Made by a program: the position numbers and the translations under genes | DNA from: Candidatus Gastranaerophilales bacterium | Lineage (GTDB): Bacteria; Cyanobacteriota; Vampirovibrionia; Gastranaerophilales; Gastranaerophilaceae | DNA length: 64,000 nucleotides | Assembly (NCBI GenBank): GCA_944325735.1 | Contig: CALVBI010000001.1 | Coordinates: forward strand, 62,001 to 126,000 | Direction of reading: 5' to 3' | The notes under the pieces: generated by a model | Seen by the model: only the letters and a program-made list of their open reading frames with translations | What the model was told of the DNA's origin: nothing | Databases searched by the model: none | Part shown: positions 26,674 to 47,701 of the stretch, one piece after another | How the letters are laid out: every line of letters starts with the position of its first letter | Position numbering within the stretch: the first letter of the stretch is position 1

Positions 26674-27867
26674 ATGTCACTATTAGGAAAATATACAGAT
26701 AATTTTTTAGAAGAAGATAACTTTGATGAACAATCAAGTTATACAACACCTGCAGTCTTAAAAGATGATGAAGATATTAGCTTAAAAAAATCGATTTTGA
26801 TTTCAGCAATTCTTCACCCGACTGCTATAGGTGTATGGACATTAGTATTGTTAATTCTTTCATTTATGGGAATCACATTCAAAATTTTTGAAAAACCAAA
26901 ACCAAAAGTAAATGATATAGAATTCGTACTTGTAGATAAAGAAGAAACTCCTATAAATAAAAAGACACCATATCGTGCAGATATAAATTCACGAGCAGGG
27001 GGGCATCACGACCCCACAAGAAAGGTATCAATGCCATCACCTGCCCCAGGTGCTCCTCAACAAGCTGCGAAATCAGCACCTGCTAAAGCAGCTCCTAAAA
27101 AACAAGCTGCACCGCAAAATCCTTTACAAAAAATTGTAAAACAAGTAACACAACAGGTACAGCAAGCACCTGCACCTAAAAAGGCAACAAGTCAACCTGC
27201 TCCGGGGCCTAAAGCTCCTCAAGCAGCAAGACCGGCACCACCGACTGCACGACCATCTTTAAAACCGCCAACAACTCCACGCCCAATAGCAAAACCATCA
27301 TCAGCATTCACTGTTCCGGTTCCCAAAGGCGGGACTGGTAGCGGAAGATATTCGACAGGCCCGATTAGCGGATCAGGCACATCTGCTAAAGGCGGTGGAG
27401 GTGGAGGAAGCACTTCTTCAGGAAGTGGCAGATATGCACCTGCTCCATCATTAGCTCCTACAGGAGGTTCAGGCAGTAAACTTGCTAAAGGCGGAGGAGG
27501 AGGCACTGGCGGATATGGAAATCCTGGTCCTGGAAATCCAAACGGCAGACCTGGAATTGATGCAATCAGAGAACCTGATTTCGGTCCATACATGAGAGAA
27601 TTACAAAGACGTATCAAAATGAACTGGGATCCGCCAAAAGGAAATGAAAGCAAACGCGTTGTACTACTATTTAAAATTGCAAAAGACGGAAGATTATTAT
27701 CTTGCAGTGTATTCAAATCTTCAGGACTTCCTGGAGCAGATAAGGCAGCAATAAATGCAGTACAAGCAACAGCACCTTTCAGACCACTTCCAGCGGAATT
27801 CAAAGGATCAAGTATTGATATCCAATTTACATTTGACTACAACGTATTTGGAGCATCAGGATACTAA
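26674..27867 (+). CDS. tonB: TonB-family energy transducer
   Basis: Inner-membrane protein that passes proton-motive force from ExbB/ExbD to outer-membrane receptors. 397 residues: about 45 cytosolic residues, one TM segment (about 50-72, TAIGVWTLVLLILSFMGITF), a long Pro/Ala/Lys then Gly/Ser-rich periplasmic spacer (about 105-290), and a C-terminal TonB domain (YMRELQRRIKMNWDPPKG ... VLLFKIAKDGRLLSCSVFKSSG ... APFRPLPAEF). The long cytosolic N-terminus and the glycine-rich rod are larger than in E. coli TonB. First gene of tonB-exbB-exbD-exbD. Confidence 0.92.
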   Translation: MSLLGKYTDNFLEEDNFDEQSSYTTPAVLKDDEDISLKKSILISAILHPTAIGVWTLVLLILSFMGITFKIFEKPKPKVNDIEFVLVDKEETPINKKTPYRADINSRAGGHHDPTRKVSMPSPAPGAPQQAAKSAPAKAAPKKQAAPQNPLQKIVKQVTQQVQQAPAPKKATSQPAPGPKAPQAARPAPPTARPSLKPPTTPRPIAKPSSAFTVPVPKGGTGSGRYSTGPISGSGTSAKGGGGGGSTSSGSGRYAPAPSLAPTGGSGSKLAKGGGGGTGGYGNPGPGNPNGRPGIDAIREPDFGPYMRELQRRIKMNWDPPKGNESKRVVLLFKIAKDGRLLSCSVFKSSGLPGADKAAINAVQATAPFRPLPAEFKGSSIDIQFTFDYNVFGASGY

Positions 27868-27914
27868 AATAAATAAAAACGTAAATAACATTATGAAAAA
27901 AAGAGGATAAAATT

Positions 27915-28562
27915 ATGGAACTATTATGGAAATCAATTCAAATGGATTGGCCGGTATTATTACCAATTTTGGTATGTTCAATATTGGTAGTAGGTGTTGT
28001 TATTAACAGATTTTCTTATTACAAGAAAAACAAAAGAGATGTTGTATTGTTTATTCCAAGATTGCAAAAAGAACTTGTAAAAAACAATCTTGAAGGTGCA
28101 CAAAATCTTGCAATACAATGTGGTGGTGTAATTGGAGAAGTAACAGAAGAAGCTGTTAGAATTTTCTCTGAACAAAAAAACGGATTTTCAAGATCTTTTG
28201 ATATTGCAGCATCATTAGCAGCAAGAAAACTTGAAAGCCATTTAACTATCTTAGGTACAATCGGTGGTGTAGCACCATTTTTAGGTTTGTTTGGTACTGT
28301 TGTAAGAATTCTTTTCACATTCCAAGATTTAGCAGCTCAAGGTAACCAATCAGCAGCAGTTGCATCTGGTATTGCATCAGCATTGATTGCTACAGCATTC
28401 GGTCTTGGTGTTGCGATTGTTGCAGTTATCTTCTACAACTCTTTCCAATCAATCGTAAAAAGATATGAAGATGACTTCCAATTAATCAAATTATTATTCT
28501 TAAGTTTTGTAGATTCTAACGACGAATCAACAACTCCAAGTAATGCAAACATTTCATTATAA
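27915..28562 (+). CDS. exbB: ExbB/TolQ/MotA-type proton channel protein
   Basis: Inner-membrane proton channel subunit energising TonB. 215 residues with three TM segments: about 13-31 (VLLPILVCSILVVGVVINRF), about 110-135 (TILGTIGGVAPFLGLFGTVV, the conserved pore helix), and about 150-175 (ASALIATAFGLGVAIVAVIF). RBS AGAGGA. Lies 47 bases after tonB and before two exbD genes. Confidence 0.94.
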   Translation: MELLWKSIQMDWPVLLPILVCSILVVGVVINRFSYYKKNKRDVVLFIPRLQKELVKNNLEGAQNLAIQCGGVIGEVTEEAVRIFSEQKNGFSRSFDIAASLAARKLESHLTILGTIGGVAPFLGLFGTVVRILFTFQDLAAQGNQSAAVASGIASALIATAFGLGVAIVAVIFYNSFQSIVKRYEDDFQLIKLLFLSFVDSNDESTTPSNANISL

Positions 28563-28566
28563 AAAG

Positions 28567-28597
28567 AAAGGAGATTACGGTAAAAATATTGCCGTAA
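28567..28597 (+). promoter_or_regulatory. Shine-Dalgarno separated from exbD start by a hairpin
   Basis: AAAGGAG (28567-28573), then TTACGG (28575-28580) paired with CCGTAA (28592-28597) around 11 bases, then 13 bases to the ATG at 28611. Layout and core match the element before tonB. Confidence 0.55.
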
Positions 28598-28610
28598 GCG
28601 ACACAAGAAA

Positions 28611-29066
28611 ATGGGAATGAAAACCAATAAAGGGAAAGATGCCCTTTTTACAGAGATTAATATAACTCCGTTAACAGATATTTTCTTAGTTCTGTTGATT
28701 ATTATGATGGTTGTCGCACCGACTTTCCAATCAAATGACAGTTCTATTACTGTTCCTGAAATTAACAGCGGAATTTCTATTGAACAGAAAAATGCTACTG
28801 TTTCAGTAACAAAAGAAGGAAAAATGTATTTGAACGGAACTCCTGTAACTGAAGATAATTTAACTAATGAATTAATTACACTGAAAGCTCAGCTTGAAAA
28901 ACCTGAACTTGTTGTAAAAGCTGATGAAAGAGTTAAAAGTGCAAAAATTATGGAAATTATGAATTCAGCACAAGATGCAGAATATAAAAAGCTAATCGTT
29001 GCAGGTGAACCTCTAAGTAAAAAAGAACAAAAAGATTTAGAAGAAAAATCAACCAGACGCAGGTAA
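28611..29066 (+). CDS. exbD: ExbD/TolR-family protein (first copy)
   Basis: Single-span inner-membrane partner of ExbB. 151 residues: cytosolic NITPLTDIFLVLLIIMMVVAPTF with the essential TM Asp (in PLTDIF), then a periplasmic domain (SITVPEINSG; VTKEGKMYLNGTPVTEDNL; LVVKADERVKSAKIMEIMNSAQDA). The C-terminal 20 residues are highly charged (KKEQKDLEEKSTRRR), unlike the second copy. ATG 28611 or 28617 may be the start. Confidence 0.92.
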   Translation: MGMKTNKGKDALFTEINITPLTDIFLVLLIIMMVVAPTFQSNDSSITVPEINSGISIEQKNATVSVTKEGKMYLNGTPVTEDNLTNELITLKAQLEKPELVVKADERVKSAKIMEIMNSAQDAEYKKLIVAGEPLSKKEQKDLEEKSTRRR

Positions 29067-29071
29067 ATAAA

Positions 29072-29461
29072 ATGAGCAGAAATCGTGACACATTTAATGA
29101 AATAAACATAACACCTTTGACAGATATCTTTTTAGTTCTGTTAATCATTATGATGGTAATAGCTCCAATGCTTGATCAACAGGGACTTAATTTAACCGTT
29201 CCAGAAAATGTTGCTCAAGAACAACAGCAAAAAGAAACCAAAATTATGACAATAATGGTTGATGCTGGCGATAAATTCTATTTAGACGGCGCAGAAATTC
29301 CTGCTGATAAATTAGAAAGCACAATAAAATCACAAGCTTCAAATTACCCCGATGGTTTGATGATTAGAACCGATGCGGATTCTTCTCACGGGGCAATGGT
29401 AAAAGTTATGGACAGTGCCAGAAATTCAGGTATTACTGCAATTTCTGTTGATCAAATCTAG
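29072..29461 (+). CDS. exbD: ExbD/TolR-family protein (second copy)
   Basis: 129 residues, paralogous to the gene just before it: INITPLTDIFLVLLIIMMVIAPML carries the TM Asp, followed by NLTVPENVAQE, YLDGAEIPADKL and LMIRTDADSSHGAMVKVMDSAR. Five bases separate it from the first copy. Two adjacent exbD genes suggest a hetero-oligomeric ExbD or two separate complexes sharing one ExbB. Its last 4 bases overlap the convergent small gene. Confidence 0.92.
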   Translation: MSRNRDTFNEINITPLTDIFLVLLIIMMVIAPMLDQQGLNLTVPENVAQEQQQKETKIMTIMVDAGDKFYLDGAEIPADKLESTIKSQASNYPDGLMIRTDADSSHGAMVKVMDSARNSGITAISVDQI

Positions 29462-37243: not shown

Positions 37244-38434
37244 TTAAATATCATCATCCTCAAGTTCAAAATCGCTATAATCAAATTCATCTTCTTCTGA
37301 ATTTTGAGCTTGAGCAACAGGAGCTTCTTCTTGGAATTCCATGTTACTATCATCAAAATCTGCAGCTTGAGCATCAGACATTTCATCGTTTTGAATTGGT
37401 GCAGCCTGATTATTTTGAGCCTTAGGAGCTTTTGCAATAACTTCATCGATTTTTACACCGTATCTGTCATTTACAATTACTAATTCTCCGCGAGCTATCG
37501 GTTTATTTTCTACACTCAATGTTACTTTATTATCATAAATAGATGTCAGGTCTACAACCAAACCTTTTTCAATACTTTTCAACTCTCCAAGAGTAATTTT
37601 AACAGTATCAAATTGAGCATCCATCTCAACTTCAATACTATCCCAAAGATTAGTATTTTCTCCTGCCATTTCTTCATTTCCTCCGTCATTATCCACTGGC
37701 ATTACCAGTCCCAAGTTTGGGTTTATGTTTATATTTGTTTCATAATCCTTGAACTTTAACACCATATGCTTTGTGTCACTGTTATCAAATACTACGATAT
37801 CATCTACTTCAATATTTTTTATATCGATTAATTTAAACTTCGTAGATCCGACTTTTACAGCAACATCAATCACACTTGATGAAAAATCACCATAATCAAA
37901 CTTATCACTTTTTGAAGTTACAACTTCAGGGGCTAAAAGCTCATCAGGTAAAGTAATAATAAATTTTGCAACGGCATTAGTATCAACATCTTTTAATAAA
38001 AATGTTAAATGTACAACATCAAAATTTGTACGTTTTAATGATGGTGGGGCTTGTGTTAAAAATTGGGAAGTTGCATTAAACATATAATCATTAAATGCCG
38101 TAATGATTTTTGCTTCTAAATCTGTTAATTTATTCAAATTAAATCTTGAATTAGGTTTGCCCAAAGCTCTATCTAAAATTATCCCTATTGCTTTTTCAGA
38201 AGTTCTGAAAAACATATCGTGCAATTTATCTATACGTATTTTTGTTACAAAATACGCATCTTTATCCATTAATGTATTAATATTTTTGCTTATACCAATT
38301 AAAATAAATTTTAATCCAGGTAGAAAGAATTCATCACTTGAAGCCTGTACGACAGGCGGATAAGCGTTAGAAAACCAATTGTACTGCGCGTACAATTCTT
38401 TATAATCTATTGAGTTGATTTTTTCGTTTCCCAT
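37244..38434 (-). CDS. Double SpoA-domain protein (FliM/FliN or SctQ-like switch/C-ring protein)
   Basis: 396 residues. The N-terminal 190 residues have weak resemblance to the FliM/CheC region. Two SpoA (surface presentation of antigens) domains follow: about 192-255 (VIDVAVKVGSTKFKLIDIKN ... DDIVVFDN) and about 268-340 (IEVEMDAQFDTVKITLGELKSI ... VNDRYGVKIDEVI, the canonical FliN-type ending). A disordered acidic tail with many Asp/Glu and Gln finishes the protein. Flagellar FliM and FliN carry one SpoA each, while the T3SS protein SctQ carries two. First gene of the fliO-P-Q-R run. Confidence 0.8.
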   Translation of the reverse strand: MGNEKINSIDYKELYAQYNWFSNAYPPVVQASSDEFFLPGLKFILIGISKNINTLMDKDAYFVTKIRIDKLHDMFFRTSEKAIGIILDRALGKPNSRFNLNKLTDLEAKIITAFNDYMFNATSQFLTQAPPSLKRTNFDVVHLTFLLKDVDTNAVAKFIITLPDELLAPEVVTSKSDKFDYGDFSSSVIDVAVKVGSTKFKLIDIKNIEVDDIVVFDNSDTKHMVLKFKDYETNININPNLGLVMPVDNDGGNEEMAGENTNLWDSIEVEMDAQFDTVKITLGELKSIEKGLVVDLTSIYDNKVTLSVENKPIARGELVIVNDRYGVKIDEVIAKAPKAQNNQAAPIQNDEMSDAQAADFDDSNMEFQEEAPVAQAQNSEEDEFDYSDFELEDDDI

Positions 38435-39710: not shown

Positions 39711-40439
39711 TTATTTATTTTCACCTTCTGGTTTTACTTCGCTTTCAGCTTTTGCTTCTGCCTTTGGAGCTGCTTCACCTTCAGCTTTCACTTCGCCTTC
39801 AGGTTTTGCTTCAGCTTTTGGTGTAGCTTCACCTTCTGCTTTCACTTCGCCTTCAGGTTTTGCTTCAGCTTTTGGTGTAGCTTCACCTTCTGCTTTCACT
39901 TCTCCTTCAGCTTTTGTTTCTGCTTTTGGAGCAGCTTCAGTTTCTGGTTTTACTTCACCTTCAGCTTTTGTTTCAGTTTTTGGTTTTACGTCTCCTTCAG
40001 GTTTTACATCAGTTTCTGGTTTCTTTACATCTGGAGCATCAGTTTTAGGTTTTCCATCTACATCATCAACTTTGTTGCCTCTAATTTTATTCCAAAGTTT
40101 TTCTCCACTTTCACCGATATCCACAAAGAAGTTTTTAACCTTACCTAAGAAGCCAAGTTCTTTACCTTCTTCTGCTACTGCTCTTGTTAATGCTTTTTTA
40201 CCTACTGCAATACTTAAACCTACATAAGTTGCTGCTAATAAACCAACAATTGTACCAATTATTGCAGGAGCTTTACTTTTTTTCTTTTCTACAGGTGCAC
40301 CTTCTTTTTCAAAAGAATCAGCAGGAGCTTCAGCTTTAGGTGCTTGTGTTGTAAATTTACCTGGAGAATTAATTAAATCTTGAGCATTCACAGGTGCTGC
40401 ATCACCACGGAAATTTACGTTAGAAACAGAACTTATCAT
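39711..40439 (-). CDS. Membrane protein with NFRG start and repetitive acidic tail, 242 aa
   Basis: Not recognised. Starts MISSVSNVNFRGDAAP (the (I/V)xFxG-type motif), a disordered stretch, one TM helix (about 59-80, APAIIGTIVGLLAATYVGLSIAV), a helical part (FFVDIGESGEKLWNKIRGN), then about 120 residues made almost only of Lys, Glu, Ala, Pro, Gly and Thr, with an 18-residue repeat of the type PKAEAKPEGEVKAEGEAT. The tail could span periplasm or peptidoglycan. RBS AAAGGAGG is strong. Confidence 0.75.
   Translation of the reverse strand: MISSVSNVNFRGDAAPVNAQDLINSPGKFTTQAPKAEAPADSFEKEGAPVEKKKSKAPAIIGTIVGLLAATYVGLSIAVGKKALTRAVAEEGKELGFLGKVKNFFVDIGESGEKLWNKIRGNKVDDVDGKPKTDAPDVKKPETDVKPEGDVKPKTETKAEGEVKPETEAAPKAETKAEGEVKAEGEATPKAEAKPEGEVKAEGEATPKAEAKPEGEVKAEGEAAPKAEAKAESEVKPEGENK
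39718..39987. repeat. Tandem 54-bp repeats in the tail of the 242-aa protein
   Basis: Five units of 54 bases start at 39718, 39772, 39826, 39880 and 39934; the second and third are nearly identical, the outer ones diverged. Each encodes 18 residues, so copy-number change would keep the frame and alter tail length. Confidence 0.85.
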
Positions 40440-40683
40440 TTTGGAAAACCTCCTTTTATTACCAATTATCTATTTTAACTTATTTTTTCGTCACTTTATC
40501 AGAGATTGAGACCTACTATAATCTACATACACTGATTAATACACACTAAGATTAAAACGACTGACAAATTTATTTTGTCCGAAAAAATATCCTTTTTCAA
40601 TATTTGTTACAAAAATTTACAATTAAATTGGAATATTTTTTTTTTGAGTGTCATCTTATTGAATAGAAGAGGAGAATTTTAAC

Positions 40684-43600
40684 ATGGTAACAGAACAAGA
40701 AACATTAATTTACATAGAAGATCAGGACAAAAAAGATGCAAGCGTTGCTGCAAATGCTTTTGCTCATAAAGATACAAAAAATAGAGCATATATAAACACT
40801 CTAGGAGCAGATTTGGCTCTTAAATATTTAGCTTCTGAAAATATTGATGTTTCTGATGTTTACAACATTCATTCTATTAAAAAAATTCTTGAAGAACTTG
40901 ATATTTCAGACATCATGCTACCTAACATTCATATTGATGTAAGAGTAGTTTTCGACGAAAACGTAATATTTATTCCAAAATCTCACTTTGAATACAATAT
41001 TGAGCCTGATATTTATCTTGTTTTCAACTTAGCAAAAGATTTTTCTCATGTTAAATTCCTCGGATTTTTCGAACCAAGATTAATTAATAAAAACAATGCT
41101 AATGATAAATATTATTTCATTGAAAAAGAAAAATTAAATTCAGTAGTAGACTTGAAAAAATATATTGAATCTCATAAAGGAAATACTAAAGAGACATTAT
41201 CTCAAGAAGATATCGAAAACTCTGAAAGAATTATTATCTCAATGGCTGATAATGATATCTCAGAAAATGACAAAAAATATCTAATCAAACAACTTACAAA
41301 AAGTGCAGAATTAAGAGATAAATTCATTGAATATGAAAACTTTGAAACATTATCATATAGAGCAATGACCGATCCTCAAATTGAGAGAAAAGAGATCGTA
41401 GATCTATCATCAGTACAAGAAACTAAAGATATATCATTAACTGATGAATTAGACAATATGAATACTGCCAATATTGAAGAAATTGCAAACGAACCAAATG
41501 AAATAGAAAATTCTTCTAGCACATCAGAAATAAATAACGAAGATTTGGTTCCAATCAATGAATTTTCAGAAATAAACCTTGAACCTATTGATAATATTGA
41601 AAATATAACTATTGAAGATAATATAAATAATGATACTACTACTCCGGACTTGAAACCACTAGAAGACATTGGAGGAGCAATTGCTGGAGGAATTGCCGCT
41701 GGAGCAACAGCTGCTGCAGCTGGAGAAATATTAAATGTTGCAGAAACTGCTGATACTGCGTTAAATATTACTGATACTGCTCTTAATATCATAGATTCAG
41801 GAGTTGAAATTGCTAAAGATCTCATAACAGATGCACCAAAAGAAATAAATCCAATTTCTTTTGACAATATTGATACATCCGCAATTGATAATATACAAAA
41901 CCTTGATGAAAATATTAAAGAAGAAACAATCTCTTTAGAAGATGTTAAACTTCCGGAAAAAACAGAAAACACTGATTATATTGATAAAATTGAAAATAAA
42001 ATATCATTTGATGACATAGAAACCAATAATATTCTTGAAGAGCCACTGCCATTTAATATGGATGAAGAAAAAATATCTTTAGACGATATAGATACTTCAA
42101 ATATAATGAAAACTGAAGAAAATAATTTTGAAGCAGAAACATTGTCTTTAGATAATATAGATACTTCTGCTATTGAAAACATGAACAATATTGATTCTGA
42201 AGCTATTGAGAATACAATATCCCTTGATGATATCAATATTAACGAGAATAATGAAAAATTAGCCCAACCTCTTGATATAAATATAGAAAATGATACACTA
42301 TCTTTTGATAATATTGACACTTCAAGTATAGAAAATATCACAGATATTAATGATCAAGATATTGACAATACTATATCTTTTGACAATATCGAAGAACCTA
42401 ATAACAATTTAAATAATAATATTGAAGATAATTTAAATAATTCTACAATTTCATTTGATGACATTCAACTAGATTCTAATGAAAATGAAATTGTAGATAA
42501 TATACAAAACCAAAATGAAGATAATATTGATATGAGTGATTTTATGGATGATACTATGTCTTTGGACACTGAATCTTCTGAAAACACCAATTTACTAGAA
42601 AATATAAACGAACCAGACAATTTAAATTTAAACAATACTACTGATAATTTTGTAGAAAATTTAAATTCAGACAACGGTATTGAGGATGATATCAATTTTG
42701 ATGAACTTTCTAATATAGATTCAGAACCTCTTGAATCAACAATTGAACCAGAAATAGTAGAAGACCCTATCGAAAATACAGAAGCTCATAACAACGATAG
42801 TTTTGGCAAAAACCTTATGGAAAATTTATCAGCCGACAATCTTGATGACATTTCAATTGAAGATTTAGGCATAGATGAAAATATCCCTCAAAACAATGAA
42901 GATATTTCATCAAATGATTTATTATCACAAATTGATGATATTTTAAATTCTCAGCCAGTAGTAGAAGAAACTCAAAATAACACAATTTCACAACAAGATA
43001 TAAGCAACGATATTGAATCACTGGGAAATAACACAGAATTTGAAGATATTCAAGATATTTCAGAATTAGCAACTATAGATGATACTCTAAATAGCTCTAT
43101 AGATACAACAGACCACATATCTGAAGATGCAAATTCTGGGCTAATTACAGATAACGAATTTGACCCAAATAATGAATTATTAAACAATAATATTGAAAAT
43201 ACCTCAATTGATGATTTACTAAACTTCGATGATAGTTCAGACACTAATTTTGAAGAAGAAAATAATGCATCAGAAGAAGATAATATTGGTGTTTTATTTA
43301 ATGATACAGACCCAACATCAGATGTAGAATTAGATGAAATAAATCAAAACTATAATCAAGAACCAGAACAACCTCAAATTCCAGGTGCTGCATTATTAAA
43401 TAATAAAAGTAAAACCCAAAACAAAAAATTAATTCTTGTTGCAGCTGCACTTGTCACAGTAATTGCTGCAGCATCTGCAGTTATGGTATTTAAACCTAAA
43501 AATGATACCACTGCAGATATTGAACCTATCAAAACAGAATCTGCTAAAAATGCCATAACCCCAGAAAATACAAATAGTCAAACAGATGAAAGTACAGAAA

Positions 43601-44061
43601 ATATTCTTGCGACAAATGCACCAGAAATTAATAAAAATGAAACTAAAAATATCCAAAAAACACAACCAATATCAGAATTAAAAAACACTCCAACTAAACC
43701 AAAACAATCTGCGGAATCATATATTAGTGTCAATAAATTAGTCTGGGATGTCCCAAGCAATCTATCTTACAGCAGTAAATTCCAAAATTATCTAAGAACT
43801 GCAGGGAAAAGTATAAAATTATCATTGTCAGCAGACTTATTATTGGCAAAAGAATATGCATACACAAACCAAGTAAAAGTAAATGTAAAATTAAGTAAAA
43901 ATGGTAGTGTACAAGATGCAAAAGTCTTATCAAGCAGTGGTTCAACAGAAATTGATAACATTGTGTTACAATCTGTTAAAGATACTTTAAATGTCGTAAA
44001 ACCGCCTGTAGACGAGATTAAGACCCCAGATTTCAATTTGAGTCTTATCATATACTTTTAA
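40684..44061 (+). CDS. Large transmembrane protein: DUF1822-like N-terminus, repeat linker, TonB-type C-terminus
   Basis: 1125 residues. Residues 30-140 match the pattern of the cyanobacterial DUF1822 family: RAYINTLGADLALKYLASEN, then VRVVFDENVIFIPKSHFEYN and FSHVKFLGFF. A very acidic Asn/Asp/Glu/Ile linker (about 245-900) contains some eight degenerate copies of (I/L)S(F/L)D(N/D)I(D/E)TS about every 25-40 residues, plus a Gly/Ala patch near 325-345. One TM helix (about 914-937) follows, and a periplasmic TonB/TolA-type domain (about 1015-1125: VKVNVKLSKNGSVQDAKVLSSSG). Topology: N-terminus in, C-terminus out. RBS AGAGGAG. Precedes a sigma-like gene. Confidence 0.75.
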   Translation: MVTEQETLIYIEDQDKKDASVAANAFAHKDTKNRAYINTLGADLALKYLASENIDVSDVYNIHSIKKILEELDISDIMLPNIHIDVRVVFDENVIFIPKSHFEYNIEPDIYLVFNLAKDFSHVKFLGFFEPRLINKNNANDKYYFIEKEKLNSVVDLKKYIESHKGNTKETLSQEDIENSERIIISMADNDISENDKKYLIKQLTKSAELRDKFIEYENFETLSYRAMTDPQIERKEIVDLSSVQETKDISLTDELDNMNTANIEEIANEPNEIENSSSTSEINNEDLVPINEFSEINLEPIDNIENITIEDNINNDTTTPDLKPLEDIGGAIAGGIAAGATAAAAGEILNVAETADTALNITDTALNIIDSGVEIAKDLITDAPKEINPISFDNIDTSAIDNIQNLDENIKEETISLEDVKLPEKTENTDYIDKIENKISFDDIETNNILEEPLPFNMDEEKISLDDIDTSNIMKTEENNFEAETLSLDNIDTSAIENMNNIDSEAIENTISLDDININENNEKLAQPLDINIENDTLSFDNIDTSSIENITDINDQDIDNTISFDNIEEPNNNLNNNIEDNLNNSTISFDDIQLDSNENEIVDNIQNQNEDNIDMSDFMDDTMSLDTESSENTNLLENINEPDNLNLNNTTDNFVENLNSDNGIEDDINFDELSNIDSEPLESTIEPEIVEDPIENTEAHNNDSFGKNLMENLSADNLDDISIEDLGIDENIPQNNEDISSNDLLSQIDDILNSQPVVEETQNNTISQQDISNDIESLGNNTEFEDIQDISELATIDDTLNSSIDTTDHISEDANSGLITDNEFDPNNELLNNNIENTSIDDLLNFDDSSDTNFEEENNASEEDNIGVLFNDTDPTSDVELDEINQNYNQEPEQPQIPGAALLNNKSKTQNKKLILVAAALVTVIAAASAVMVFKPKNDTTADIEPIKTESAKNAITPENTNSQTDESTENILATNAPEINKNETKNIQKTQPISELKNTPTKPKQSAESYISVNKLVWDVPSNLSYSSKFQNYLRTAGKSIKLSLSADLLLAKEYAYTNQVKVNVKLSKNGSVQDAKVLSSSGSTEIDNIVLQSVKDTLNVVKPPVDEIKTPDFNLSLIIYF

Positions 44062-44098
44062 TTATGCTATAATGTGGTAAGAACAAGGAAACCTAGTA

Positions 44099-44668
44099 GT
44101 GGAATTAGCTCAAGATAAAATAGATTTAATAGAAAAAATTATAAAAAGTGATAAAAAATTCGCAAACAACGAAGATTTGTTTGATGACTTTTTTAATGAA
44201 ACCTGTAAACGTTCTTTTTTAATCGTTAAAACAGTAAGTTCTGATGTTACATTAGAAGCTTATCTTAAAAAAATTGCAACAACTTCTATTTTAAATGTCT
44301 TAAAAAGTGAAGGTCGATTAAGAAGAACCAGAAGCGGTTATATGTCTACAAAAGAAGCACCTATTGAAACTGTTGCAAAACAGGATTCATTAGATTATTC
44401 TAAAATTGAAGTAACATATGAACCTGTAGATATCCAAGACACTCCGGAAGATTTAGCAATAAAAAAAGAAATTTTACAAAAGATTGTAGATACAGTATAT
44501 GAAATTGATACAAATTCTCCTGACAAAAATTACTTAAAACTTTATGATTTAAGATATGAAAAAGGAATGACTCAAAAAGAAATTGCAGAAGAATTAAATT
44601 TATCTCAATCAGAAGTTTCAAAAAGATTATTTAAGCTTATGGAAAAAGTAAAACAAGCTTTTAATTAG
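44099..44668 (+). CDS. Sigma-70-like (ECF-size) transcription factor
   Basis: 189 residues from a GTG start. A region-2-like helix set (LEAYLKKIATTSILNVLKSEGRLRRTRSG) and a clear region-4 HTH at the end (LYDLRYEKGMTQKEIAEELNLSQSEVSKRLFKLMEKVKQAF), with a linker between. Region 2 is diverged, so it might be a sigma factor or a sigma-derived regulator. A TATAAT with extended TGC (44065-44073) and TTATCA 17 bases upstream give it an own promoter in the 37-base gap after the DUF1822/TonB gene. Confidence 0.75.
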   Translation: MELAQDKIDLIEKIIKSDKKFANNEDLFDDFFNETCKRSFLIVKTVSSDVTLEAYLKKIATTSILNVLKSEGRLRRTRSGYMSTKEAPIETVAKQDSLDYSKIEVTYEPVDIQDTPEDLAIKKEILQKIVDTVYEIDTNSPDKNYLKLYDLRYEKGMTQKEIAEELNLSQSEVSKRLFKLMEKVKQAFN

Positions 44669-44680
44669 GATTTTGAAATA

Positions 44681-47647
44681 ATGAAATGTCCAATATGCAA
44701 AAAAACAATTCCTGATAATGCGCTTAAATGTCCATATTGCCAAGCTCGTACAGGATTAATTTGTAAAAATTGTAATACAGTAAATTCAATATTTGATTTT
44801 ACATGCAAAAATTGCGGAACAGAAATATTAAAAAAATGTCCTAATTGTAATAGCGTAAATCTTCCAAATGCGACAAAATGCAGAAAATGCGGTTACACAT
44901 TCAAAAAACCAACTCCTATAATTGAAGAAAAAGAAATTAAGTTAGAATATCCCGCAAATCTGATATCTCAACAAAGTGCCAAAAATATATTAATAAAAGG
45001 CATACTTTCATATGATAAAAAAATTCTATCATTAAGCGGAGAAAAGGGGATTGGTAAAACCCTTGTACTAAAAGCTATTATGCACGAATTAAAGCCTAAA
45101 AATTTTTCTTGGCTTTATGGGAAATGTACACCTATCACCCAACTAACTCCAGCAGGGTTAATTCAAGATATTTTGTTAAATATTTTCAAATTGCCTAATT
45201 TTTGTTTAAATAATTTGCAATTTAAAAAAGATGCATCTAAATATTTCAAAAATGAATTTCCACAACTAAATAATAATGAAATATTTGATCTTATAAATTT
45301 CTTATACCCTCATAATGAAGGCACTTTTGAGGATATAGTTGCAGCTAAAAATAAAACTTTTAACTTTTTAAATAAAATATTTGATAAAATCATAGAAAAT
45401 AATAAATTCATAATAGTAATTGATAACTTTGAATTTATAGACGGATTTTCATACGAATTTATCAGTCGTTACATAAAAAAAGATAATGTATGGAATGACT
45501 TAAAATTCCTGCTCATATACAATGAACCAAAACCGGCAAAAGGATATTTCTATTTTCCATCAAAACAAAATGAAAATATATATTTAGATGTCGGAATTGC
45601 TCCAATTGAATTTAAACAAATTAATACACTTTTAGACCAAAAAGTAAAAAAAATAGAAGGTTTCCCTCAATTAAATAAATTTGAATTACAAGATATTTAC
45701 AAAATAAGTAAGGGTAACCCTTCTTATATCAATCATGCATTAGACTTATGTTTTGATTGCCAACTCAGTGACCAACAGTTTGAAATTGCTACAACTTTTT
45801 CAGGATTACTTGAATTCAGACTTGCACTATTAGCACATATCAATCCTATTGCATATAATATTTTACTTGGTTCTGCAATTATCGGAGATAAGATTAATAT
45901 GAATCTTGTCAAAGAAATTTTTGAAGTAAACGACAAAACTTTTAGAGATGTTATGATATACCTAAAAAAAATGGATTACATAACTCCTATTAATGAAATA
46001 TATTGTGAATTCAGCTCATTATCTTTATGGGAAACAATCATAAAAACAGCTAAAAATGATGAAAACTACAAAGAAATTAACAAAAAAATATTCACACATT
46101 TAACAGGTTTTACACTAAATTCTCATGCTATTTTAGGAATTATTGCACAAAACTTAAAACAACCAGAACTAGCACTTGATATTTGGACAAAAAACACAAG
46201 ATATGCATCATATATAGGTGATTTAAATCTATATGCAATATCCCAAAAGCAATCTATGGCATTAATAAATGAATTTGATGAAACTCAAACTCTAAAAATT
46301 CGATATAATATTTCAGAACGATTAGGCAAATTACTGGCAAATTCAAACCCAATGGAAGCAATCGAGTACTTGCCTGATGCAATCTCTAATGCTGAAGCTG
46401 TAGGCAACAGTCCAAAAGAAATTGAATTATTAGCTTATCTTGCATCTTGTTGCAGAAAAACAGGAAATTATTTTGGAGAAGTTGAATGTGTAGATTCTGT
46501 TCTCAAAAAAGTTAAACCAGAAAATATACTCGATACAGCACTTCTTAAAACAACAAAATTAAATGCATTATTAAATATCGGAAACAGCGGTCAAATCATA
46601 AATATGATTGATACTGAAATAATGCCTGTACTCGATCAATATTTTAATAAAAAACATGATCCAAAAGATCCCCAATTACAATTCATGTATGAAACTTGGC
46701 TAAAGACATATTTAACACTTGCCAACGCATTAGTTATACAAGGGAATGACAGATCTTTTGAAATTTTAACGATTTTATTCGACATAATAGACAGAAATCA
46801 AATTCAAGACGAATTGTTCATATGCAAATGTAAACTAACTCTTGCTTTTGCTAACACAATGAAAGGAAATTTCAAAGCTTCAGAACAAATGCTTGAGGAA
46901 GTCTTAAAATCTTATCGTGAAAATATAATGGATAATGAAACAATTTTAAGATGGAATTTTATAAATATCATAAATAATTTCTTTAGGAAAAAATATGATG
47001 GAATTCAGGAAGACATGTTCCAAATAGTTACATTTGCAAATAACAATGGCGACAACTTTACAAAAAATATTCTAAAAACATTACTTGGTAAAGTATTTAA
47101 AGACAATGATAACTCTAAACAAGCAATGGAAATATATAACGACCAAATTGCTTATTTTGCAAAAGAAAAAATGGCTCTTGGAGCACTTTTAACTTGGTAT
47201 TTAATAGCTGACACTACATTAGTTACAGAAGGTCCTGAAAATGCACGAGAAATAGCAGAACAAGCTCTTGAAGTAGCACAAAATCCAAAAATTGATAACT
47301 ATTTCTTTAAAATTCTTTTAAAAATGGTAATAGCAAAATGTGCTATTACAACTTCTGATTTTGAAACAGCAAAATTAAATATAGAAAGTGCAATTTCGAT
47401 TGCAAAACAATTTAATTTAAATGATCTACTATCAAGATTATATATACTATACGGTAAATATTTCCAAGAACTGGGGCTAATCAAATCTCCTGAACAAAAT
47501 GATTATCTTCAAGGTGCACAAAAAATGTATGAATCAGCAGAAGAATTAATTAAACAAACTAAAAATGCTTCTGTAAATTCTGATTTGAAAAAATCTCAAA
47601 AAGCACTTTCGACATTTTGTATTATGAACAATATAAAAATATCCTAA
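44681..47647 (+). CDS. Zinc-ribbon / ATPase / TPR signalling protein, 988 aa
   Basis: N-terminal 75 residues carry three zinc ribbons (CPICKKTIPDNALKCPYC; CKNCNTVNSIFDFTCKNC; CPNCNSVNLPNATKCRKC). Next comes a STAND-like or AAA-like ATPase: Walker A SGEKGIGKTLVLK (about 120), Walker B FIIVIDNFEFIDG (about 245), and a winged-helix-like region (about 400-450). The C-terminal 500 residues are helical repeats of TPR type, as in AfsR/MalT-like regulators and the AAA part of some adenylate cyclases. No output domain is visible. Starts 12 bases after the sigma-like gene stop, so the two are almost certainly coexpressed. Confidence 0.75.
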   Translation: MKCPICKKTIPDNALKCPYCQARTGLICKNCNTVNSIFDFTCKNCGTEILKKCPNCNSVNLPNATKCRKCGYTFKKPTPIIEEKEIKLEYPANLISQQSAKNILIKGILSYDKKILSLSGEKGIGKTLVLKAIMHELKPKNFSWLYGKCTPITQLTPAGLIQDILLNIFKLPNFCLNNLQFKKDASKYFKNEFPQLNNNEIFDLINFLYPHNEGTFEDIVAAKNKTFNFLNKIFDKIIENNKFIIVIDNFEFIDGFSYEFISRYIKKDNVWNDLKFLLIYNEPKPAKGYFYFPSKQNENIYLDVGIAPIEFKQINTLLDQKVKKIEGFPQLNKFELQDIYKISKGNPSYINHALDLCFDCQLSDQQFEIATTFSGLLEFRLALLAHINPIAYNILLGSAIIGDKINMNLVKEIFEVNDKTFRDVMIYLKKMDYITPINEIYCEFSSLSLWETIIKTAKNDENYKEINKKIFTHLTGFTLNSHAILGIIAQNLKQPELALDIWTKNTRYASYIGDLNLYAISQKQSMALINEFDETQTLKIRYNISERLGKLLANSNPMEAIEYLPDAISNAEAVGNSPKEIELLAYLASCCRKTGNYFGEVECVDSVLKKVKPENILDTALLKTTKLNALLNIGNSGQIINMIDTEIMPVLDQYFNKKHDPKDPQLQFMYETWLKTYLTLANALVIQGNDRSFEILTILFDIIDRNQIQDELFICKCKLTLAFANTMKGNFKASEQMLEEVLKSYRENIMDNETILRWNFINIINNFFRKKYDGIQEDMFQIVTFANNNGDNFTKNILKTLLGKVFKDNDNSKQAMEIYNDQIAYFAKEKMALGALLTWYLIADTTLVTEGPENAREIAEQALEVAQNPKIDNYFFKILLKMVIAKCAITTSDFETAKLNIESAISIAKQFNLNDLLSRLYILYGKYFQELGLIKSPEQNDYLQGAQKMYESAEELIKQTKNASVNSDLKKSQKALSTFCIMNNIKIS

Positions 47648-47668
47648 AATAAAAACTTAAATAATAAA

Positions 47669-47701
47669 AAAAGTCATCTAAAATAATTTAGATGACTTTT
47701 T
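47669..47701. terminator. Bidirectional terminator after the three-gene unit
   Basis: AAAAGTCATCTAAA (47669-47682) pairs perfectly with TTTAGATGACTTTT (47687-47700) around ATAA. It separates the 988-aa gene from the convergent GGGtGRT gene. Confidence 0.9.

Follow-up and report, generated by a model that had tools for sequence, protein, structure and literature searches.

The locus studied here has a described counterpart in cyanobacteria, where EACC2-caspase genes have as neighbours a gene for a DUF1822 protein (called a TPR protein in that work) and one for an ECF sigma factor; the authors link the EACC2-caspase proteins to immunity (PMC8195603). Class I anti-sigma factors, by definition, carry their anti-sigma domain (ASDI) at the N-terminus, and about 44% of these domains lack the zinc motif, so that zinc-free forms are common (PMC7406223). 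In type III-E CRISPR, Csx30 inhibits an ECF sigma factor and a CHAT protease relieves the inhibition (PMC10028731).

Here we describe a three-gene unit, P1-P2-P3, of Candidatus Gastranaerophilales, found within a stretch of 64,000 nucleotides (the window, to which coordinates given without a locus name refer). An earlier note on this DNA had reported three tightly packed genes, and open reading frames were found accordingly: P1 (40684-44061, 1125 aa), P2 (44099-44668, 189 aa) and P3 (44681-47647, 988 aa) all lie on the + strand, separated by 37 and 12 nt. P1 comprises a DUF1822-like domain, an anti-sigma domain, an acidic linker, a transmembrane (TM) helix and a TonB_C-like periplasmic domain; P2 is an ECF-type sigma factor; and P3 combines zinc ribbons, a STAND NTPase and a TPR superhelix. 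A bidirectional terminator-like hairpin at 47668-47701 closes the unit. The downstream flank is GGGtGRT, and the genes 5' of P1 (37244-40439) encode a FliN-like protein, an oxidoreductase-like ORF and a repeat protein. The first of these (37244-38434) lies near the unit in many relatives; its product has a FliN/SctQ C-ring domain (FliMN_C 73 bits) and represents, in this lineage, a switch protein of the type III or flagellar kind.

As in the cyanobacterial EACC2 neighbourhoods (PMC8195603), DUF1822 here adjoins an ECF-type sigma factor and a third signalling protein. The two arrangements differ in that, in the cyanobacterial loci examined, DUF1822 is full length (370 positions) within a protein of 313-475 aa that has no TonB end, and in that the third gene is CHAT-CHASE2, trypsin or nSTAND-WD40 rather than P3. 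No caspase or CHAT-type domain was found in P1-P3, and the flanking genes are likewise of other types. In the cyanobacterial loci that we examined the sigma gene adjoins DUF1822, with TIGR02937 scores of 109 bits (L122) and 106 bits (L125) and weak to no matches in the others. The pairing of DUF1822 genes with sigma genes in Cyanobacteria that the earlier note mentions is thus real in these loci, yet already published (PMC8195603), and it is plausible that the pairing is ancestral. The three-part form seems to be undescribed; the literature search found no description of an anti-sigma/TM/TonB protein joined with a zinc-ribbon STAND protein, in line with what the earlier note had stated.

The domains of P1

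The N-terminus of P1 bears out the proposed cyanobacterial-type DUF1822-like start (residues 9-156; 40708-41151, + strand). Scanned alone, it matched PF08852 with 34.7 bits (E 1.3e-8; gathering cut-off 25 bits), and in a profile search of the genomes DUF1822 of P1 again exceeded the cut-off. Scanning the N-terminus alone was needed, for full-length P1 against Pfam listed no DUF1822. The match covers profile positions 1-155 of 370, not a full-length domain, and the remaining stretch of the profile is replaced in P1 by the anti-sigma domain. An AF2 model of residues 1-236 (pLDDT 94.2, pTM 0.89) predicts an alpha/beta fold for residues 7-165, whose best structural neighbours by VIA are nearly all of PD-(D/E)XK type: Hjc resolvases (Z 8.2, rmsd 3.1 over 110), SPARDA (8.1) and 2eo0 (7.9), followed by DpnI, NaeI and HincII. 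Because a Z of 8 is near background for models such as this, and because Foldseek on residues 1-236 returned no match with E < 0.001 and none that was confident for the DUF1822 part, we treat this likeness as a lead only. By eye, the acidic residue of the (D/E)xK motif is absent, the place being taken by I-P-K in the window and P-P-E in many cyanobacteria; going by the modelled fold, a binding role would therefore be likelier than a nuclease.

Directly after the DUF1822-like domain lies an anti-sigma domain (residues ~175-236; 41206-41391, + strand) that the first reading of this DNA had missed. An alignment of 58 homologues identified the segment as an anti-sigma zinc-finger type domain in relatives. 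Of 61 P1 homologues, 25 have Hx3Cx2C at the same alignment position, and zf-HC2 scores over its Pfam cut-off of 22.2 bits in six relatives (L147 23.2, L075 23.0, L077 24.5, L143 30.9, L149 23.1 and L161 31.3 bits). In the tree of N-domains the zinc-bearing P1 rows form one group (support 100/98). The window P1 segment itself has no Pfam match and no Hx3Cx2C; in its clade the zinc ligands have been lost, HxxxCxxC having become QLTKSAEL with Q, S and L at the ligand positions. Searched against the PDB, the alignment profile found the RsiW anti-sigma factor (E 5.5e-4) and, more weakly, DdvA. The model of window residues 175-236 matched RsiW (VIA Z 7.2) and MucA (Z 7.2 and 6.8), and Foldseek gave a match to 8z6g (prob 0.84, rmsd 0.9).

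The P1 family thus has an ASDI-type domain, a three-helix bundle of zf-HC2 type, but about 165 residues of DUF1822-like domain come before it. Because the ASDI is internal, we suggest that P1 works like a class I anti-sigma factor without filing it as a standard member of that class. As with RsiW-SigW, MucA-AlgU and RseA-RpoE, an ECF-type sigma factor is encoded beside a protein that crosses the membrane once and carries a three-helix anti-sigma domain in the cytosol, and an ECF-type promoter precedes the operon. Unlike these class I pairs, the anti-sigma domain lies behind DUF1822, is followed by an acidic tether of ~670 residues and a TonB_C-like end, and is accompanied by a third gene for a zinc-ribbon STAND NTPase. 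Very probably, P1 and P2 are an anti-sigma and sigma pair.

Composition, hydropathy and profile matches bear out the remainder of P1 as previously outlined, namely an acidic repeat linker, one TM helix and a TonB-type end. The low-complexity linker (residues ~237-905; 41392-43398, + strand) is 27% D/E, 2% K/R and 16% N over its ~670 residues and holds eight S(F/L)D(D/N)I motifs. Its length and charge vary with gene order: where P3 is adjacent the median linker is 589 aa with a net charge per residue of -0.26 (n=39), versus 99 aa and a near-neutral -0.06 where it is not (n=19). The p-values (5e-7 and 5e-8) overstate this contrast, which is largely one evolutionary event. Loci L158 and L075 are exceptions to the trend.

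A single TM helix (residues ~914-937; 43423-43494, + strand) leads to the TonB_2/TonB_C-like periplasmic domain (residues 1059-1111; 43858-44016, + strand), which scores over cut-off for TonB_2 (28.9 bits; cut-off 22) and TIGR01352 (28.0 bits; cut-off 27.1). These matches, and a complete TonB-ExbB-ExbD-ExbD operon at 26674-29461 of the window, would be expected if P1 were a TonB-type energy transducer that contacts outer-membrane receptors, with a regulatory cytosolic part and the sigma factor as a passenger. We consider this very unlikely. The SxxxH motif for coupling to ExbB/ExbD is absent from the window helix and from all 58 P1 TM helices, of which three contain any His; no Plug domain of TonB-dependent receptors was found in the genome, which already has a normal TonB beside ExbBD; and P1 carries an anti-sigma domain. 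Lacking both an SxxxH helix and a Plug partner, P1 is not an energised TonB, and its TonB_C-like end would most plausibly serve for sensing or anchoring in the periplasm. The proposal of the earlier note that a periplasmic or cell-wall signal passes through P1 to the sigma factor is thereby modified: the route from membrane to sigma factor is well supported, through the anti-sigma domain, but the end is not a working TonB. The arrangement recalls FecI-FecR/TonB cell-surface signalling in combining an ECF sigma factor with an anti-sigma factor in the membrane and with periplasmic parts related to TonB, from which it differs in that the genome has no Plug receptor and the TonB_C-like domain lies within the anti-sigma protein itself. 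Across the genome, TonB_2 exceeds its cut-off repeatedly (12 matches in all), several times in a 523-aa frame (G000:C1:379784-380830).

The sigma factor P2 and the promoters of the unit

P2 had been called sigma-70-like, and profile searches agree: it matches TIGR02937 (sigma70-ECF) with 71.4 bits over residues 20-187 (cut-off 42.9) and Sigma70_r4 with 35.2 bits, the region 4 HTH occupying residues ~149-187. A NEDL motif, similar to the EDL motif in region 2.2 of ECF sigma factors, is present in 50 of 54 P2 relatives. The window protein has a short sigma2-sigma4 linker and no region 3. The region 2 family PF04542 is absent among the Pfam matches shown for P2, and phmmer searches of the PDB with single P2 and single P3 gave nothing useful. 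In the g14 relatives, an inserted acidic stretch of some 260-400 residues comes between sigma2 and sigma4 of P2. Such insert-bearing ECF-like sigma factors are encoded at L094:6897-8645, L095:6497-8320, L098:6842-8272 and L160:3889-5346, and their acidic repeat insert resembles the acidic linker of P1.

We identified two promoters within the unit. An ECF-type promoter, GGAATATTTT-N9-TGTCATCT, lies 54 nt before P1 (40630-40656, + strand) and is a second feature that had been missed. GGAAT and GTC are typical ECF promoter elements; at N14, the spacing from GGAAT to TGTC is a little shorter than usual for such promoters. Upstream of it, alignment of the relatives' upstream regions revealed a conserved block TTTTTCAATATTTGTTACAAAAATTTACA (40592-40621, + strand) that includes the near-palindrome ATTTGTTACAAAA and is common to P1 and the divergent gene 39711-40439. 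This divergent gene encodes a protein with EGEVKAEGEATPKAEAKP-type repeats, and the block GTCAAAATAAATnnATCAGTCGTTTT upstream of it (reverse strand; 40540-40600), within the same regulatory region as P1, is kept in relatives.

With 0-2 mismatches, GGAATATTTT-N9-TGTMATCT was present before P1 in 31 of 36 trio loci, and on either side of the tree, but in none of 16 standalone P1 loci and in none of seven loci from the clade whose P2 is degenerate or carries an acidic insert. The genome from which the window comes contains a single exact copy, the one 54 nt before P1, and no other site with 0-1 mismatch; two sites have two mismatches (L171, L172). Across 60 family genomes, 36 promoter sites were found with at most one mismatch against two for a reversed control, and coordinate comparison placed all but about four of the 36 before P1. 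The motif searches of the own genome and of the 60 family genomes found no further promoters of the P1 type. A candidate second P2 target common to G049, G046 and G293 was rejected: in the one of these that was examined, G293 (L209), the site falls within a gene for a response regulator encoded on the opposite strand. In every group in which P2 has become detached or degenerate the promoter before P1 is missing; P2 therefore probably drives expression of its own operon, and the comparison of upstream sequences supports autoregulation of P1-P2-P3 as the likely arrangement.

The same distribution bears on whether P2 is still a sigma factor. The absence of PF04542 from the matches shown and the long acidic inserts in the g14 relatives would suit a sigma-derived DNA-binding or scaffold protein that is controlled by P1 and P3. 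We regard such a change of function as improbable, because the TIGR02937 match extends over residues 20-187, NEDL is so widely retained, and loss of the ECF-type promoter coincides exactly with degeneration or detachment of P2. We therefore continue to treat P2 as an ECF sigma factor. Its own promoter, claimed earlier, is also borne out: a sigma70-type TTATCA-N17-TATAAT with TG before the -10 lies before P2 (44045-44073, + strand), and most of the trio loci and relatives likewise have the extended -10.

The STAND NTPase P3

For P3, described in the earlier note as a STAND/AAA-like ATPase with three zinc ribbons and TPRs, Pfam, model and fold matches all agree. Residues 1-73 contain three CxxC-CxxC zinc ribbons, residues 96-460 an NTPase with a winged helix and residues 478-988 a TPR superhelix, and Pfam finds the zinc ribbons, AAA_16 and TPR_12. 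Among homologues the zinc-ribbon cysteines are nearly invariant and the GK of Walker A is invariant. The model (pLDDT 88.5) matches the PH0952-type STAND-TPR protein 6mfv (E 3e-11), MalT 8bob (1.9e-7), Apaf-1 and Avs3; by VIA, the NB-ARC of NRC1 (8bv0) aligns over 96-460 with Z 20.1, MalT 8bob with Z 21.0 and, over residues 610-982, MalT domain III with Z 24.1. P3 therefore has the P-loop NBD, winged helix and superhelical repeats of STAND proteins. It shares these three parts with MalT and PH0952-type STAND-TPR proteins (VIA Z 20-24) and differs from them in its N-terminal triple zinc ribbon, in having no LuxR-type DNA-binding end and in lying beside a sigma factor. The suggestion that P3 is a nucleotide-dependent switch fits the STAND fold, whereas its tie to P1 and P2 consists of strict linkage and co-conservation.

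In a clade in which the three genes are dispersed, P3 (L162-L167, L169) has ~170 extra residues between the zinc ribbons and the ATPase. By eye these suggested a degenerate class III nucleotide cyclase, a candidate that was rejected as Pfam and PDB profile searches found nothing.

The proposed circuit and its distribution

Taking these results together, the explanation that we favour, at a probability of roughly 0.7, is that P1 is an anti-sigma factor, P2 the ECF sigma factor that it releases, the operon subject to feedback and P3 a STAND control protein. P1, anchored in the membrane, would hold P2 there through the domain that follows DUF1822. The signal to P1 would come either through its periplasmic TonB_C-like domain or from the cytoplasmic side, by way of the DUF1822 domain or P3. 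P2, once freed, would transcribe P1-P2-P3 from the GGAATATTTT-N9-TGTCATCT promoter, forming a feedback loop, and the separate sigma70-type promoter would give a basal supply of P2 and P3. The TPR superhelix of P3 may bind a ligand or partner, with the zinc ribbons as the output end, and P3 would most likely control sigma release or activity. Comparisons of sequence and structure established which domains are present, that the genes are linked, and that there is a promoter motif that occurs together with an intact P2; from these we infer P1-P2 binding, sigma release, the use of this promoter by P2 and the whole role of P3.

Nearly all loci retrieved from the family show P1, P2 and P3 in this order on one strand, so the neighbourhood reflects more than chance. 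P2 was found in 109 of 117 family genomes, the weakest matches being possibly other sigma factors, and DUF1822 in 115 of the 240 genomes examined from the class, a single one of which lies outside this family. On one branch of the tree (L142-L157) the unit is split, with P1 alone, P2 elsewhere and P3 at a third place, and all three parts are still kept. Together with the g14 inserts, this split means that linkage and the standard sigma form are not always kept.

This distribution also bears on a possible role in conflict or programmed cell death, of the STAND/EACC2 kind, in which the sigma factor would launch a defence response. Such a role would draw on the STAND NTPase with its TPR sensor and fold matches to Avs3 and Apaf-1, on the company that cyanobacterial DUF1822-sigma genes keep with immunity-linked EACC2-caspase proteins (PMC8195603), and on the type III-E CRISPR protease system, which likewise frees an ECF sigma factor from an inhibitor (PMC10028731). 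In that Csx30 - CASP-sigma system, as proposed here, a dedicated inhibitor holds an ECF sigma factor and a third protein acts on the inhibitor, but P1-P2-P3 has no CRISPR and no CHAT protease, and its putative inhibitor is a membrane protein; the likeness is one of logic. No defence-model match was obtained for P1 or P3, the unit has no protease or nuclease effector, the neighbourhood is the same over nearly all family genomes, unlike mobile defence islands, and the split clade retains every part. Defence is thus an unlikely function for the unit, and we retain the sigma/anti-sigma circuit as our reading.

More tentatively, and with less than even odds for the reading as a whole, DUF1822 N-domains may be a phylum-wide anti-sigma part, a nuclease-like fold turned binding module, and the DUF1822-ECF sigma pair an ancient module with an exchangeable controller. 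In photosynthetic cyanobacteria the controller would be a CHAT/CHASE2, trypsin or nSTAND protein, whereas in gut Gastranaerophilaceae a zinc-ribbon STAND NTPase would act on a sigma factor that a very long acidic tether holds at the membrane.

The favoured circuit would assign a definite function, open to testing, to DUF1822, a large family of cyanobacteria that the literature scarcely mentions, and would link a MalT/Apaf-type STAND switch with a sigma factor and its anti-sigma factor. It also points to an apparently family-wide ECF sigma circuit in the gut order Gastranaerophilales, for which our literature search found no paper on sigma factors. Because the promoter sequence is in hand and the protein segments are defined, each main step lends itself to laboratory experiments.

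In two single genomes a gene of the unit is broken into two reading frames, P3 in L068 (7544-11250) and P1 in L069 (7723-11975), possibly through frameshifts or assembly errors.
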